Shown: positions 40,424-64,000 of the stretch, one piece after another
How the letters are laid out: every line of letters begins with the position of its first letter
How positions within the stretch are numbered: position 1 is the first letter of the stretch
DNA from: Nocardioides cavernaquae
GTDB lineage: Bacteria > Actinomycetota > Actinomycetes > Propionibacteriales > Nocardioidaceae
DNA: 64,000 bases
Reading direction: 5' to 3'
Assembly (NCBI RefSeq): GCF_003600895.1
Contig: NZ_QYRP01000002.1
Span: forward strand, 2,914,001 to 2,978,000
Notes under the pieces: model-generated
Database searches by the model: none
The model's input: only the letters and a program-made list of their open reading frames with translations
Told to the model about the DNA's origin: nothing
Translations under genes and position numbers: made by a program

Positions 40424-40527
40424 GCTTCAGAGTTGCCTGGTCCGCACGGTCCTTGGCGCCTGAGAGGTTCCGGGGAGGAATTGCCCCTTCGGCGCTCCGC
40501 CAGTGCACACGGAGTCTCTCCCGCGCG
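40424..40527 (-). ncRNA. Glycine riboswitch (single aptamer)
   Basis: On the minus strand the leader shows the conserved aptamer blocks in order: CGGGAGAGACTCC, GCCGAAGGGGCAA, CTCCCCGGAACCTCTCAGG, AAGGACCGTGCGGACC and GGCAACTCTG. Only one aptamer is seen, not the tandem pair. It lies between ltrA and gcvP and should switch gcvP on when glycine is high. Confidence 0.92.
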
Positions 40528-40575
40528 GTGTCAGCAGCGGATCAAGGTTACCCCAGCCGCGCAGCTCGAACCGGA

Positions 40576-51589: not shown

Positions 51590-51663
51590 CGGGCTGTAGC
51601 GCAGCTTGGTAGCGCACCTGACTGGGGGTCAGGGGGTCGCAGGTTCAAATCCTGTCAGCCCGA
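51590..51663 (+). tRNA. tRNA-Pro(GGG)
   Basis: Acceptor CGGGCTG pairs with CAGCCCG, discriminator A. D arm GCGCAGCTTGGTAGCGC, anticodon stem CCTGA/TCAGG with loop CTGGGGG (anticodon GGG), T arm GCAGG-TTCAAAT-CCTGT. CCA is not encoded. Confidence 0.95.
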
Positions 51664-58122: not shown

Positions 58123-58140
58123 CGACGCTAGCGTCGGGTC
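58123..58140 (+). promoter_or_regulatory. Palindrome and leaderless -10 of the sigma-54 gene
   Basis: CGACGCTAGCGTCG (58123-58136) is a perfect 14-bp palindrome. Inside it TAGCGT (58129-58134) lies 6 nt before the GTG at 58141. A repressor bound here would cover the -10. Confidence 0.5.
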
Positions 58141-59379
58141 GTGGACCTGCGTCCCGGCCTCGAGATCACGCCGCGGCTCGCGGCCGAGCCGGGCCTGCGC
58201 TTCCTGTCCTACCTCGCGTTGCTCCCTGCCGGATCCGTCGACCTCGAGGCCGCGATCGAACGCGCCGTGGCCACCAACCCGGCACTCGAACGCGTGCCCG
58301 GCCGCCATTGCCCCGGCTGCGGGATGTACGGCGTGGGCGAGCGGTGTGCGGCCTGCTCGGCGACCGCACGGCCACCCGACCTCGCTGCACCGGTCGACTG
58401 GAGGGGCGACCTGATCCACGAGGCCCGACTGGAGCTTCCCCGTCGCCTCCACGAGCTCCTGTCGACCACGGTCGAGGCCCTCGACGACCACGGCTTCCTG
58501 CACCGCACCCCGCCCGGGGTCGATGACGGCGACCTCCAGGCGGTCATCACCGGGCTGCGCATCGTCGGCCCGCCCGGCATCGCCGCGTCGTCGCCCGTCG
58601 ACTGCGTCCGGGTCCAGGCAGACCGCCTCGCCGCGCTGGGTGAAGTGCCCGTCCTCGTAGCCGTCCTCGCCGCTGGCTTCCTCGACGCCGTCGCGGAGGG
58701 CCGCCACGCCGAGATCTCGGCTGCGACGGGAGCCTCCGTCGCGGCAGTCGAGCAGGCCGTCTCGGTCCTCCGCGAGCGGGTCCGGCCGTTCGTCCTCCTC
58801 GACGGAGGATCCGACCGGGCCCGGCCCACCGACGTGGTCTTCGTGGTCGACGCGAGCGGCACGGTTCGCGCGCACGTCGCGGACGCCGGAGCGTTCGGGG
58901 TGAGGCAGGTGCTCGACCCCCTGACGGGCGATCCCGAGGCGCGGCGGTGGTGGACGCCATACCGCGACGAGGCCGGCCGGCTGCTCGCCGCCATCGAAGC
59001 GCGGGCCACGATGCTGGGACGCGTCGCCGGCCTGCTCGCCGAGGAGCAGGCCGGATTCATCCTCCAGGGCAGGGCGGCGCACCAGCCGCTGCGTCGCCAC
59101 GACGTGGCCCGGATGCTCTCCGTGCACCCCTCGACCGTGGGGCGGGCCGTGCAGGACAAGGTCGCCCGCTGTCCCGACGGCCGCCTGCTCCCCCTGTCCC
59201 TGTTCTTCGGCCGGACCACCAGCCTCCTCGAGCAGGTCAGCGCTGCCGTCGCCGACCACCCGGGAGCCACGGACGCCGAGATCGCCGAGCGGCTGGCCGC
59301 GTCAGGGGTCCCGCTCGCCCGACGCACGGTGGCGAAGTACCGCCTGCTCGCCGCGAACCCTGCTTCGCCGAAGCACTGA
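58141..59379 (+). CDS. rpoN: Sigma-54 (RpoN) homologue with zinc-ribbon insertion
   Basis: A 412-aa protein aligning with sigma-54 along its length. Residues 5-52 match region I (ITPRL, NPALE) but lack its Gln richness. Residues 56-72 are CPGC-x8-CAAC, a zinc-ribbon-like insertion where region II is normally acidic. Residues 95-220 are the core-binding part (EALDDHGFL, GPPGIAASSPVDC). Residues 275-360 hold the HTH (DVARMLSVHPSTVGRAVQDK) and LSLFFGR. The RpoN box ARRTVAKYR is at 393-401. Sigma-54 directs RNA polymerase to -24/-12 promoters and needs an AAA+ activator. No other sigma family has the RpoN box. A matching promoter follows at once. Confidence 0.9.
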   Translation: MDLRPGLEITPRLAAEPGLRFLSYLALLPAGSVDLEAAIERAVATNPALERVPGRHCPGCGMYGVGERCAACSATARPPDLAAPVDWRGDLIHEARLELPRRLHELLSTTVEALDDHGFLHRTPPGVDDGDLQAVITGLRIVGPPGIAASSPVDCVRVQADRLAALGEVPVLVAVLAAGFLDAVAEGRHAEISAATGASVAAVEQAVSVLRERVRPFVLLDGGSDRARPTDVVFVVDASGTVRAHVADAGAFGVRQVLDPLTGDPEARRWWTPYRDEAGRLLAAIEARATMLGRVAGLLAEEQAGFILQGRAAHQPLRRHDVARMLSVHPSTVGRAVQDKVARCPDGRLLPLSLFFGRTTSLLEQVSAAVADHPGATDAEIAERLAASGVPLARRTVAKYRLLAANPASPKH

Positions 59380-59441
59380 TCGCACGGGGGTGGAGCGAAC
59401 CGGGCTTCGCCCATCGCGCGGCTGCTGAGCCCGGAGCGCTC

Positions 59442-59457
59442 TGGCACGGAAATTGCA
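59442..59457 (+). promoter_or_regulatory. Sigma-54 -24/-12 promoter
   Basis: TGGCACGGAAATTGCA: TGGCACG, four bases, TTGCA, an exact match to the sigma-54 consensus with GG and GC at correct spacing. It lies 63 nt after the sigma-54 gene and 42 nt before the next ATG. Confidence 0.85.
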
Positions 59458-59499
59458 TGGGGAAGGTCGAGAGCTTCATCCGACCGAGAGGGGAGACCC

Positions 59500-60165
59500 A
59501 TGCACGACATCGACCGCGCCATGTTCGAGTTCGAGCAGGAGACATACGAGACCGGCGGGCCCGGCGAGACCGCGGGCGAGTCCTACGAGGCATTCGAGGC
59601 CTACGAGAGCTTCGAGGCCAGCCACGAGGCCGAGGCCCTCGAGATGGAGTACGCGGCCCGCCTGCTGGAGATCACGAACGAGGCGGAGCTCGAGGAGTTC
59701 CTCGGCGGGCTGCTCCGGACCGCGACCTCGGCCGCCCGCTCCTTCATCAGCTCCCCCACCGGTCAGGCACTCGGCGGCGTCCTCAAGAACGCGGCCCGCC
59801 AGGTCCTGCCGCAGGTCGGCGGCATCGTCGGCAATGCGATTGGAGGCGACTTCGGCCGCCGCGTCGGGTCAGCCGGCGGGCGCTGGCTCGGCAAGCAGTT
59901 CGAGTACGAGGGCATGTCCGCTGAGGACCGCGAGTTCGAGGTCGCACGTGCCTTCGTCCGCACCGCCCGCGACGCGGCGCAGATCGCCCAGCGCACGGCG
60001 TACCTGCCGCCGCAGCAGGCCGCCCGCACCGCTCTCGTCACCGCTGCGCAGCGCAGCCTGCCCGGACTCGTCCCGGTGATCACCGGCGGCAGCGTCCCCG
60101 GCCCGCGCCGGACCAGCGGTCGCTGGGTGCGCAAGGGCAACCGGATCGTCCTCTACGGCGCCTGA
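59500..60165 (+). CDS. Tyr/Glu-rich glycine-zipper protein A, sigma-54 operon
   Basis: A 221-aa protein of unknown family. Residues 1-50 are acidic and aromatic (FEFEQETYE, YEAFEAYESFE). LLEITNEAELEEFLGGLLR (56-74) is a helical motif shared with the next gene. Residues 85-130 are Gly/Ala/Val-rich with glycine-zipper spacing (GGIVGNAIGGDFGRRVGSAGG). A basic C-terminus ends RWVRKGNRIVLYGA, also shared. No signal peptide. GAGAGGGGAG precedes the ATG. It may be a paralogue of the next product. The zipper suggests membrane association or self-assembly (inference). Confidence 0.8.
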   Translation: MHDIDRAMFEFEQETYETGGPGETAGESYEAFEAYESFEASHEAEALEMEYAARLLEITNEAELEEFLGGLLRTATSAARSFISSPTGQALGGVLKNAARQVLPQVGGIVGNAIGGDFGRRVGSAGGRWLGKQFEYEGMSAEDREFEVARAFVRTARDAAQIAQRTAYLPPQQAARTALVTAAQRSLPGLVPVITGGSVPGPRRTSGRWVRKGNRIVLYGA

Positions 60166-60205: not shown

Positions 60206-61114
60206 ATGACCGCGTACGAAGCATTCGAGTACCAGCCGGAGCTCCACGAGTCCTACGAACAAGCGGAGGCCTACGAGACCTTCGAGACCCAGGAGCTGCA
60301 CGAGGCCCTCGAGTTCGAGCTCGCCCAGGAGCTCCTCGAGATCACCACCGAGGCCGAGCTCGAGGAGTTCCTCGGCAAGCTGGTCAGGCGAGTGGCGAAG
60401 GGCGCCAGCTCCTTCATGAAGTCCGGGATCGGCAAGGCGGTTGGCGGCGTGCTCCGCAACGTCGCGAAGACCGCGCTTCCCATGGTCGGCTCCGCGCTCG
60501 GCTCGTTCGTCGCCCCCGGGCTCGGCACGGCCATCGGAGGCAAGCTCGGCGGCATGGCCGCAAGCCTGCTCGAGGCCGAGGAGCTGGAGTCGATGGGCGA
60601 GGCCGAGGCCGAGATGGAGGCCGCTCGTCGCTACGTCCGCTGGGCCTCCGGCACCGTGCGCAACGCGATGCGCGCGCCGGCCGGCGTACCGCCGCGCACC
60701 GTCGCGCGCAGCGCAGCCGTGTCCTCGGCCCGCCGCTACGCGCCCGCGCTCGTGCGTCCGTCGTACGCCGCCCGCACGCAGCCGTGGCGCAGCCGGCGTG
60801 CCTCGTCGTACGGACGGTCCGCCTGGGCCGCACCGTACGGAGGCGGAGTCGGGTTTGCGCAGGCGGCGCCCTACGCACCCTTCACCCCTGCAGGGCCGGT
60901 CGCAGGGGGCTGCTCGTGCGGCGGCCATGGCGGGGGCCAGTCCGCTCCGGACTTCGAGCCGTTCGACGGTGACTTCGAGAGCTACGAGACACAGGAGTCC
61001 CAGGAGGCGATGGAGGCCTTCGAGTCCCACGAAGCGCACGAGGCGCACGAGGTCGGCGGTGGGGGTGGCCGCTGGTACCGCCGCGGCAACCGCATCGTCC
61101 TGGTCGGGGCCTGA
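60206..61114 (+). CDS. Tyr/Glu-rich glycine-zipper protein B, sigma-54 operon
   Basis: A 302-aa paralogue of protein A. Acidic N-terminus (YEAFEYQPELHESYEQ), LLEITTEAELEEFLGKLVR at 43-61, glycine zipper at 75-118 (GSALGSFVAPGLGTAIGGKL), an Arg-rich middle, a Gly/Cys/His patch (CSCGGHGGG, 236-244), a second acidic repeat (FESYETQESQEAMEAFESHE, 257-276) and the shared end RWYRRGNRIVLVGA. GAAGGAG is 9 nt before the ATG. Function unknown. Confidence 0.8.
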   Translation: MTAYEAFEYQPELHESYEQAEAYETFETQELHEALEFELAQELLEITTEAELEEFLGKLVRRVAKGASSFMKSGIGKAVGGVLRNVAKTALPMVGSALGSFVAPGLGTAIGGKLGGMAASLLEAEELESMGEAEAEMEAARRYVRWASGTVRNAMRAPAGVPPRTVARSAAVSSARRYAPALVRPSYAARTQPWRSRRASSYGRSAWAAPYGGGVGFAQAAPYAPFTPAGPVAGGCSCGGHGGGQSAPDFEPFDGDFESYETQESQEAMEAFESHEAHEAHEVGGGGGRWYRRGNRIVLVGA

Positions 61115-61122
61115 GGCCCGCG

Positions 61123-62427
61123 ATGGACGTCCGCCGACTGAGCGGCTCCCTGCTCGAGCTGGAGGCACGGGCGCTGCTGTCCCGCCTGGACCAGATCCGG
61201 CCCCTCGCCCTCCACGAGACGATGGTGCCGGCCGCTGCCCTCCCGCCCCGAGCCAGCCTCGACGTCGAGCGGTTCCTCCACACCGGACGGAAGGTCCTGC
61301 GCAGCCAGGTCCGGGACTACCTCGCCTGGCTGCGCGGCCCCGGCCGTACGGCGACCCCCGAGGAGCAGCAGTACCGCTTCGTGCTGATCCGGATGCGGTT
61401 CAACGCGATCCTGAGCCAGTTCGACATGTTCACCGAGGTGGTGACCCAGCGCAGCGAGAACCGCACCGGCGTCTGGCTCTCCGGCCTCGACGTCGTGGCA
61501 GCGGATGCGCTGGTCGCCAATCCCCTGATCGTCGATCCGCCACCGCTCGTCTGCTACCTGGCCCGGGGGCCCGGTGCGGCGATCCGGCGGGCGAAGACCA
61601 AGATGCCCGGCGGTGACCTCAGCCCGGCAGCCATCGTGAGGATCCCCCGCGAGCGGATGGTCGGTCACGGCATCGCCTCGTCGCTGGTCCACGAGGTCGG
61701 GCACCAGGGCGCAGCGCTGCTCGACCTGGTCCCGTCACTGCGCAAGGAGCTCGCCGAGCACCGCGCGAAGGCGGGATCCGCGGCACCCGTGTGGCGCAAC
61801 TGGGAGAACTGGATCTCCGAGATCATCGCGGACTTCTGGTCAGTGGCGACGCTCGGGATGTCCTCGACGATGGGGCTGCTCGCCGTGGTCAGCCTCCCCC
61901 GGTTCTTCGTGTTCCGGCCTTCGGGAGATGACCCGCACCCGATCCCCTACGTCCGGGTCCTGCTCAGCTGCGCGATCGGCAATGAGCTCTACCCGCATCC
62001 GCAATGGGCGGACATGGCCCGGACCTGGAAGGCGCTCTACCCGGTCTCCGCACTACCCCCGGCGCGGCAGCAGGAGTTCGCAGCGATCGAGGCCGGGATC
62101 CCGGCGTTCGTGAAGGTGCTGGCCGGCCACCGCTCTCCCACGCTCAAGGGCCGCAGGCTCCGGGAGACGTTCCCGCTTGCCGAGCGCCAGCCCGCCCGCC
62201 TCCTCGAGCTGCACCGGACCTGGAAGAACGACGTCGGCGTCATGGCCCGGCAGCGCCCGGCCCTCGTCTTCGCGGTCGTCGGCCAGGCCCGCGCCGGCCA
62301 GCTGATCACCCCCGAGGCCGAGAGCCAGCTCATCTCCGCGCTGCTGCGCGCATGGGCCCTGCGCAGCAGCCTCACCTCCACCGAGAACGTCACCACCAAC
62401 CGACGCGCACTCGTGCGCGCCTCATGA
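61123..62427 (+). CDS. HExxH protein, putative zinc metallopeptidase, sigma-54 operon
   Basis: A 434-aa protein of unknown family. HEVGH at 190-194 and E233 in SEIIADF fit a gluzincin-type site (HExxH plus a downstream Glu). No signal peptide is seen. It starts 8 nt after protein B. It could process the neighbouring proteins, but that is only inference from position. Confidence 0.75.
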   Translation: MDVRRLSGSLLELEARALLSRLDQIRPLALHETMVPAAALPPRASLDVERFLHTGRKVLRSQVRDYLAWLRGPGRTATPEEQQYRFVLIRMRFNAILSQFDMFTEVVTQRSENRTGVWLSGLDVVAADALVANPLIVDPPPLVCYLARGPGAAIRRAKTKMPGGDLSPAAIVRIPRERMVGHGIASSLVHEVGHQGAALLDLVPSLRKELAEHRAKAGSAAPVWRNWENWISEIIADFWSVATLGMSSTMGLLAVVSLPRFFVFRPSGDDPHPIPYVRVLLSCAIGNELYPHPQWADMARTWKALYPVSALPPARQQEFAAIEAGIPAFVKVLAGHRSPTLKGRRLRETFPLAERQPARLLELHRTWKNDVGVMARQRPALVFAVVGQARAGQLITPEAESQLISALLRAWALRSSLTSTENVTTNRRALVRAS

Positions 62428-62439
62428 GAAGGAGACACC

Positions 62440-64000
62440 ATGTCCAACCAGATCAGGCCCGTGAGCAGGGTCTTTGCCCCGGGCGACGCGATCGTCCTCG
62501 AGATCGCCATCGAGTCCGCCGTGACTGCCTTCACCTGGGTGCTCTCCACCGAGGACGACAAAGGCACGGAGGTCGTGGTTGCGCGCGGCTGGCGTCCCAA
62601 GACGGGGGTGCGCAAGCCGCCCTCCGAGGTGTCGGTGACGCTCGCGCCCACGGACCTCGCCGGCTTCGCCCTCGACGCCTCCGAGAGCAGGGACCTTCGC
62701 GCCGGTCTGTGGGGAGGCGACTTCGTCGTACGTCTGTACAACGGCAAGCCGTCCGATCCCGATGACCTCGACGACTTCCTCGCCACCGCCGAGCTGCTCG
62801 ACGAGGACGCGTTCTCGGTGACCGACCAGGGCATCGCCGAGAGTGCCGGCACCGAGACCGGTGACATCGGCTCGCCGATCCGGGTCGCCCTCGTCCGGGA
62901 GGGCCCGGCACCGGGCACCCTGCGGTCCGCGCCCGTCACCTTCGAGCGGTTCCACGAGTTCCTCGCCGATCGCTGGTCCGACGGCGAGAAGTACGACGAC
63001 GCGAACGCCTGGCCCGCCTTCGGCTCGAAGCCGTACCAGGACCTCCGCGACGCGGCCCGCGAGTTCGTCGGGCGGGCCACGGTCACCAACTTCTCCGACC
63101 TGATCCCCGCGGGCTACGAGGAGGGCAAGCTCCGCAACACGGAGTCGCAGTTCCCGACGCTCGGCAAGCTCCCGCGCAACGCGAAGACGGCGTACCTGCC
63201 CGGCGTCGAGCTGATCTGGAACTACTGGCTCGAGGAGGGCATGCTCGTCCAGACGCTCAACGTGATCCTGGCCCGCTTCCAGAACCGCCGGCTCCCCGGT
63301 CGGGACCCGCTCTCCCGCTTCGACGTCACGCCGCTGCTCCCGCTGCGCAACCGCCTGTGGGGCTACGCGGAGGACGAGGTGCATCGGATGACGGTGCGCA
63401 GGCGCGCGGTGGAGTACGAGTACGAGTACGGCTTCCCGCTGATCGGGCGTGCCATCCCCAAGACGCGGACGCTCGTCGAGCGCCGCAGCGGGTTCCTGGA
63501 GTCGTTCCACCAGGTGCTCTTCCTCGCGCACCAGTACTTCAAGGAGCTCGACGACCTGACCGTCCAGGCCGACGCCTTCCCGCTCTACCGGGCGCTGCGC
63601 GACTGCCACATCGTCCTCTCGCAGGGCACCCAGAACCAGTACGGCGAGATGGCGGTCGCCGCACGCGCCGAGTTCCTGGTGATGCAGTCGATCCTGGCCG
63701 AGCCGCAGATGCGGGAGTTCCTCGGCGGACGGCCGATGACGCCGTACCCCGAGCCGTGGATGGACCGCGTCGACGCGATGAAGTCCATCCAGGGCTGGAC
63801 CGACACGAGCATCATGAACTTCAACGACCTGGCCACGATCGGCGAGCAGCTGGTGCTGACGATCCGGCTCGGCAACTGGGCCGACACGGCTGTCAACGTC
63901 GCCGAGGCCTCCTCGTGGGCACAGGCGTTCCGCGCCGGCATCCAGCAGTACGCCGCGGCGTACCGCACCGCGACCGGGGTCGACCTGGCCCGCGAGGCGA
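62440..64000 (+). CDS. Large uncharacterised protein, sigma-54 operon (3' end outside window)
   Basis: The frame is open from ATG 62440, with AAGGAGA upstream, to the window edge (520 codons so far). The N-terminal about 160 residues are beta-rich (IRPVSRVFAPGDAIVLEIAI, GGDFVVRLYNG). The rest is mainly helical and aromatic (WNYWLEEGMLVQTLNVILAR, LLPLRNRLWGYAEDEV, EYEYEYGFPLIGR). No family was recognised. It follows the HExxH gene by 12 nt. Confidence 0.8.
   Translation, partial: MSNQIRPVSRVFAPGDAIVLEIAIESAVTAFTWVLSTEDDKGTEVVVARGWRPKTGVRKPPSEVSVTLAPTDLAGFALDASESRDLRAGLWGGDFVVRLYNGKPSDPDDLDDFLATAELLDEDAFSVTDQGIAESAGTETGDIGSPIRVALVREGPAPGTLRSAPVTFERFHEFLADRWSDGEKYDDANAWPAFGSKPYQDLRDAAREFVGRATVTNFSDLIPAGYEEGKLRNTESQFPTLGKLPRNAKTAYLPGVELIWNYWLEEGMLVQTLNVILARFQNRRLPGRDPLSRFDVTPLLPLRNRLWGYAEDEVHRMTVRRRAVEYEYEYGFPLIGRAIPKTRTLVERRSGFLESFHQVLFLAHQYFKELDDLTVQADAFPLYRALRDCHIVLSQGTQNQYGEMAVAARAEFLVMQSILAEPQMREFLGGRPMTPYPEPWMDRVDAMKSIQGWTDTSIMNFNDLATIGEQLVLTIRLGNWADTAVNVAEASSWAQAFRAGIQQYAAAYRTATGVDLAREA

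Follow-up and report, generated by a model that had tools for sequence, protein, structure and literature searches.

Actinobacteria have been described in two surveys as lacking sigma-54, or as effectively lacking a functional one (PMC3162934, from 2011, and PMC12316311, from 2025; portions of the text available to us). In the available portions of the later survey, candidates were found in 4 of 173 Actinomycetota, three of which were not accepted as bona fide and one of which was misclassified, and high G+C is offered as a plausible reason for the missing sigma-54; the accessible text of PMC9640686 reports no sigma-54 in 205 Streptomyces genomes. Chlamydia and Borrelia have one sigma-54 and one or few activators (bEBPs), as stated in the accessible part of PMC3162934, a one-sigma-one-activator likeness to the genomes treated here. 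Unlike in Chlamydia and Borrelia, the sigma factor, activator, sites and operon of the present system all lie in one patchily distributed locus. In those two organisms, the sigma-54-regulated genes are spread over the genome. The available portions of PMC8784404, PMC10663231 and PMC7159879 do not describe the system, and our search, which most subscription papers and preprints lay beyond, found no published report of it. Here we describe a real, conserved, self-contained sigma-54 cassette in a lineage said to lack sigma-54.

The features of the locus in the window (the whole 64-kb stretch of DNA analyzed) and past its end are collected in Table 1. G000 denotes the genome carrying the window, and G166, G201, G202, G547, and G599 denote five further carrying genomes.

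Table 1. Features of the sigma-54 cassette locus (positions in window numbering unless a contig is named)
Feature	Position	Strand	Remarks
Divergent sigma-54 (RpoN-type) gene	58141..59379	+	412 aa, GTG start; zinc-ribbon-like CxxC pair, residues 57-72
Candidate enhancer site 1, GCGAA-N6-TTCGC	59353..59368	.	Within last codons of sigma gene
Candidate enhancer site 2, GCGAA-N6-TTCGC	59395..59410	.	Between sigma stop and promoter
Sigma-54 -24/-12 promoter element, TGGCACGGAAATTGCA (TGGCACG-GAAA-TTGCA)	59442..59457	+	Starts 63 nt past sigma stop
Glu-rich protein 1, Gly-rich core	59500..60165	+	221 aa; first gene past promoter; no Pfam family above cut-off
Glu-rich protein 2, related to protein 1	60206..61114	+	302 aa
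HExxH protein (HEVGHQ), putative metallopeptidase	61123..62427	+	434 aa
540-aa protein	62440..64000	+	Frame continues to 64062; family not recognized
Cluster past window (locus L007)			BioF-like PLP enzyme, amidohydrolase, M20 hydrolase, 178-aa protein, bEBP gene
Convergent bEBP gene	G000:C2:2981526-2982845	-	Far end of cluster, past window end (locus L007)

The initial annotation had read the first gene as a 412-aa product with an RpoN box, the sigma-54 HTH and a core-binding region, and its coordinates for this gene and for the promoter proved correct. In Pfam, the protein matched Sigma54_DBD (PF04552; 3.8e-22) and Sigma54_CBD (PF04963; 3.1e-8) above the curated cut-offs, and it carries the RpoN box ARRTVAKYR; thus, that reading held. 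The Pfam comparison was positive for these two domains, but Sigma54_AID (PF00309) stayed below its cut-off (0.022; 15.0 versus 23.8 bits). Among the 32 members of alignment A1, DBD and CBD were detected in all (CBD at E<=0.1) and AID at E<=0.1 in 23, the best at 6.8e-6; region I of the cassette sigma-54 appears degenerate but recognizable. A CxxCG..CxxC motif occupies the place of region II. This CxxC pair, which may bind zinc, was found in 29 of 31 cassette-type rows scanned (all except P0035 and G547) and in several environmental sigma-54s, among them one labeled Chloroflexales. A profile search against solved structures gave a best match of 1.6e-36. The AlphaFold2 model (pLDDT, 81.2; pTM, 0.51) leaves the domain arrangement uncertain; all 30 PDB matches that Foldseek returned for it at E<=0.001 were sigma-54/SigN chains (best, 9.3e-17), with low whole-chain TM-scores (0.26 to 0.43). 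The NCBIfam model TIGR02395 matched at 1.5e-32, and its equivalog cut-off was missed (113.2 bits versus 277.35). By sequence, then, the protein is a divergent member of the sigma-54 family and not the NCBI equivalog: it resembles the Sigma-54/RpoN family in its DBD with RpoN box, CBD, Foldseek-detected fold and, less clearly, region I, and it differs in its length of 412 aa, in the CxxC pair replacing region II, in falling far under the TIGR02395 cut-off and in being encoded within its own presumed target cluster.

The sigma gene is the only Sigma54_DBD match in the 3.47-Mb genome of G000. In NCBI, the Agromyces luteolus relative and that of Nocardioides sp. S-58 are listed as hypothetical proteins; the latter carries a sigma-54 label in UniRef, as do several metagenome relatives at JGI, so databases do show the protein even though no paper on it was found. 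A C-terminal tail resembling A-N-P-A-S-P recurs in a number of homologues. Upstream of the gene, the stretch 58129-58140 consists of TAGCGT and six further bases and leads directly into the GTG start; TAGCGT could be the -10 box of a leaderless transcript. By eye, a similar box precedes the sigma gene in G202 and G201 (TACGGT) and in G599 (TAGCCT), and the sequence is unlike it in G166 and G547.

The sigma protein might have lost enhancer-dependent function, acting otherwise or decaying, with a sigma-70-type promoter driving the operon. The AID score under the Pfam cut-off, the weak region I and the replaced region II would fit such a loss, as would conservation: between G000 and G166, sigma identity is 49%, compared with 70% for the bEBP and 87% for the HExxH protein. 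Because its conservation is lower than that of its presumed targets, the sigma may be evolving rapidly or may have undergone exchange. Nevertheless, the reading frame is open and full-length in all six carrying genomes, DBD and CBD persist throughout A1, and the promoter, the paired palindromes and the Walker A and GAFTGA/GSFTGA motifs of the activator are all retained (see below), which makes loss of function very unlikely.

The initial annotation had also placed an exact -24/-12 consensus 63 nt past the sigma stop, and this claim was borne out, with counterparts in five further genomes. The pattern TGGCACG-N4-TTGCW is matched exactly there, and no other site in the window matches it with at most one mismatch (0.48 expected). 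Taking the genome-wide rate, we calculated a chance of about 3e-5 for a perfect plus-strand match in the 120-nt gap. Transcription would be expected to start near 59467. An element lies 3' of the sigma gene in all six carrying genomes, exact in four, including G202, G201, and G166 (63, 63, and 65 nt past the sigma stop), and with one mismatch in G599 and G547 (175 and 98 nt). This recurrence rules out a chance motif. G547, whose HExxH gene is located upstream of sigma, has another one-mismatch element in front of that gene. Within the expected 5' leader, GGTCG...CGACC (59465-59485) is conserved in G166 and G202, and four expected leaders, folded alone, gave small hairpins.

Across G000, the pattern with at most one mismatch was not enriched (13 matches versus 39 reversed controls), so that the promoter evidence is one of position and conservation and not of number. 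These counts bear on whether a functional sigma-54 might serve a wider regulon, the local operon being one target of several and the shared locus reflecting co-inheritance. Beyond the window promoter, G000 has one more perfect match and 11 one-mismatch matches, and a looser pattern gave 3 to 10 matches per genome across the six carriers, which leaves room for further targets. The other perfect match, at C2:2528395, lies in a stretch for which no plus-strand ORF of at least 80 aa was listed. Set against further targets, matches elsewhere did not exceed the reversed control in five of the six genomes (the sixth, G599, had 10 versus 9), each genome has a single strong bEBP match, and the palindrome pair occurs in G000 only at the cassette locus. 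We consider a wider regulon unlikely and a private channel that transcribes a single operon most likely.

In all six loci, two palindromes precede the promoter and are candidate paired binding sites for the bEBP; the pair is perfect in four. The two copies listed in Table 1 are the only GCGAA-N6-TTCGC sequences in the window (0.15 expected), and 1 of 100 shuffles held as many. With transcription assumed to begin 25 nt past the first promoter base, they lie near -114 and -72. G202 and G201 have two perfect palindromes at nearly the same distances, G166 has two with one mismatch each, G599 has two perfect copies at a differing spacing (-145/-125), and G547 has two copies of a version with changed half-sites, GCGCA-N6-TGCGC, at -113/-71; no such pair lies within the 260 nt preceding the second G547 promoter. 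In five 20-kb loci, all eight perfect palindromes sit no more than 260 nt upstream of the promoter, although the eight are not independent cases because G201 and G202 are near-identical there. Across 209 genomes of the genus, the spaced pair was found in one, at the G000 locus alone, in a sample from which G201 and G202 were absent and in which G166 was missed owing to its mismatches. Copy 1 in G000, G201, and G202 coincides with the codons for the last sigma residues, A-N-P-A-S-P.

The pair could instead be the site of another regulator, such as a repressor, given that nothing directly ties the HTH of the bEBP to the palindromes and that positions near -114 and -72 would suit such a protein as well. 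Sigma-54 and the bEBP are nonetheless the only recognizable regulators common to the six loci, and G547 combines its changed half-site with a changed C-terminal HTH region of the bEBP, a single case of little weight. Another regulator seems improbable, and we take the bEBP to be the probable ligand.

The bEBP gene lies convergently at the cluster end opposite sigma in the carrying genomes. Its G000 product matched the Pfam family Sigma54_activat (PF00158) at 8e-52, well above the cut-off, and the four other Sigma54_activat matches of this genome were at 2e-7 or weaker. Each carrying genome has one sigma-54 match and one strong Sigma54_activat match (1.6e-52 or better), 4 to 9 kb apart. Walker A is intact in all six proteins, and the GAFTGA loop is kept in five, with GSFTGA in G547; GAFTGA, GAYTGA or GSFTGA was present in 116 of the 120 homologues listed. 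In its AAA+ domain, Walker A, GAFTGA, lid domain and C-terminal HTH-like region, the protein resembles the NtrC-type bEBPs, from which it differs in that no Pfam family matches its ~110 N-terminal residues and in that it is the only strong bEBP of G000. Assignment as RtcR was rejected because the N-terminal CARF domain is missing from the match: the PADLOC/NCBIfam RtcR models covered residues 113-423, 114-335, and similar stretches. Within the genus, 5 of 215 genomes had a strong bEBP, and four of these are the sigma carriers; the fifth, G232 (contig C1; loci L091 and L092; 5e-72), lacks a cassette sigma-54 and has its bEBP on a contig of 20,450 bases and 59% G+C, which is possibly a contaminant. 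Named genera with relatives of the bEBP are Agromyces, Friedmanniella, Kribbella, Nocardia, Rhodococcus, and Streptomyces.

All six loci encode Glu-rich protein(s), the HExxH protein and the 540-aa protein; in G547, the Glu-rich component is a single reading frame with two Glu-rich segments. The BioF-like PLP enzyme and the amidohydrolase are present in five of the six loci and the M20 hydrolase in four. A Gly-rich core characterizes the Glu-rich proteins, and that of one relative had a weak, below-cut-off glycine zipper score. The HExxH protein matched nothing by sequence in Pfam, NCBIfam or the PDB and no known fold at E<=0.001, and a profile search with it returned a single match at chance level. 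It belongs to a very large family (E<=0.001 for 5546 of 8000 scored candidates), with no Pfam domain among the 120 rows listed. The 178-aa protein encoded ahead of the bEBP gene in locus order (L007:9497-10033) has no family match and carries an EIKP motif, shared by its G166 and G202 counterparts and perhaps reminiscent of nuclease-like toxin domains. A known defense system was rejected, since PADLOC, run on seven proteins, matched only the ATPase and C-terminal part of the bEBP. Our guess is a membrane-active or exported operon product with a processing protease. The pairing of a putative metalloprotease with unusual small proteins recalls, as a functional analogy only, the peptide-processing systems of a zincin and a small diverging protein outlined in the accessible part of PMC7159879.

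The cassette was found in four genomes belonging to the window's genus and in two from other families of the class, so that a similar cluster occurs in three families. A scan of the family gave matches at E<=0.001 in 7 of 341 genomes, of which three were discarded as short HTH matches (20 to 22 bits), leaving full-length sigma in 4 of 341. In the class, 3 of 394 genomes had the sigma; the HExxH profile matched 11 of 394, the three strong matches (550 to 794 bits) being the three sigma carriers and the other eight (107 to 124 bits) including none of the class sigma matches. Scanning genome contigs with the single window protein returned two distant sigma-54s only. Among the 38 closest sigma homologues, 14 lie on a contig of the same size as a listed HExxH (n=120) or bEBP (n=119) contig, compared with 0 to 1 in ten offset controls, where we inferred that identically sized contigs are one contig. 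In one Kribbella and in Friedmanniella luteola, HExxH and bEBP homologues likewise lie on contigs of equal size, which suggests that the system is probably wider than six genomes. The Modestobacter, Citricoccus and Alloactinosynnema proteins that the 2025 survey did not accept may, as a guess, be further members.

Across the phylum, 16 of 396 genomes including the window's had a sigma-54 match, and the other 15 all belong to other classes; the statement in the initial annotation that sigma-54 is absent from Actinobacteria is therefore too broad. Fourteen loci from these 15 genomes entered a first tree, which omitted P0037, P0038, ten other close homologues and roughly half of P0039-P0120; after removal of eight rows, mostly long branches, 11 of the loci entered the AU test. 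A single clade of the 31 cassette-type rows together with the 11 other-class sigma-54s was rejected (p 1e-6), and the 31 rows as one clade were not (p 0.587). In a careful 44-row tree, the window, G166, G202, and G599 fell within a 14-row clade with support 100/100, and G547 was placed nearby without firm support. The other-class proteins, which share phylum and family with the cassette type and form a separate group in the trees, show no CxxC pair in any of 14 rows checked, two of them from doubtful translations. As far as sequence can tell, other actinobacterial classes hold a separate sigma-54 type. In one of those classes (G1028), a perfect TGGCACGGTTCTTGCA at L032:2125 lies ~190 nt beyond the point where a sigma-54 DBD match ends, in the same sigma-then-promoter order.

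The module adjoins der in G000 and G166. Eight of eight further relatives have der with no module gene in ~17 kb beside it, and for G201 and G202 the fetched stretch contains the module and no der. At third codon positions, the G+C of the cluster (0.87 to 0.95) is like that of neighboring genes (0.89 to 0.93); composition gives no support for recent foreign DNA, and assembly contamination is unlikely, the sigma gene lying on a 3.46-Mb contig. Elsewhere in the window are a glycine riboswitch (40437-40533, minus strand, 65.9 bits) and a tRNA gene (51590-51663, plus strand). The proposal that the sigma gene and promoter, side by side, suggest a "transferred or lineage-specific" regulatory module is supported: the cluster is conserved but patchy, occurring in three families of the class, and 4 of the 341 family genomes carry a full-length sigma. 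The module is larger than proposed, including the bEBP gene and the palindrome pair and extending past the window.

Conservation extends jointly to the genes, the promoter and the palindrome pair, and each carrying genome has a single sigma-54 match and a single strong bEBP match. Most likely, sigma, promoter, bEBP with its palindrome pair, and operon constitute a self-contained, single-locus sigma-54 system. By analogy with its family, the sigma would join core RNA polymerase and hold it closed at the -24/-12 element just 3' of its own gene. The bEBP would bind the two 16-bp palindromes upstream of the promoter, as their position, pairing and conservation suggest; its N-terminal domain would receive a signal, and ATP and the GAFTGA loop would then, as in other family members, drive formation of the open complex. 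From the opened promoter, the operon would be made: the Glu-rich proteins, the HExxH protein, the 540-aa protein, and the enzymes. We lean, with less assurance, toward a broader picture of a portable closed unit in which sigma, enhancer pair, promoter, operon and bEBP travel together among Actinomycetes as a private all-or-none channel, other promoters being of sigma-70 type and the zinc-ribbon-variant sigma working with actinobacterial polymerase.

The cassette locus, at ~70% G+C, is a counter-example to the view that Actinobacteria lack sigma-54, and the high-G+C explanation now becomes testable. Its sigma shows a variant sigma-54 architecture, and the cassette points to an operon under what we propose is unusually tight, dedicated control. 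If this is true, the locus would provide a minimal, naturally occurring sigma-54 regulon in which to study enhancer-dependent initiation on actinobacterial polymerase.
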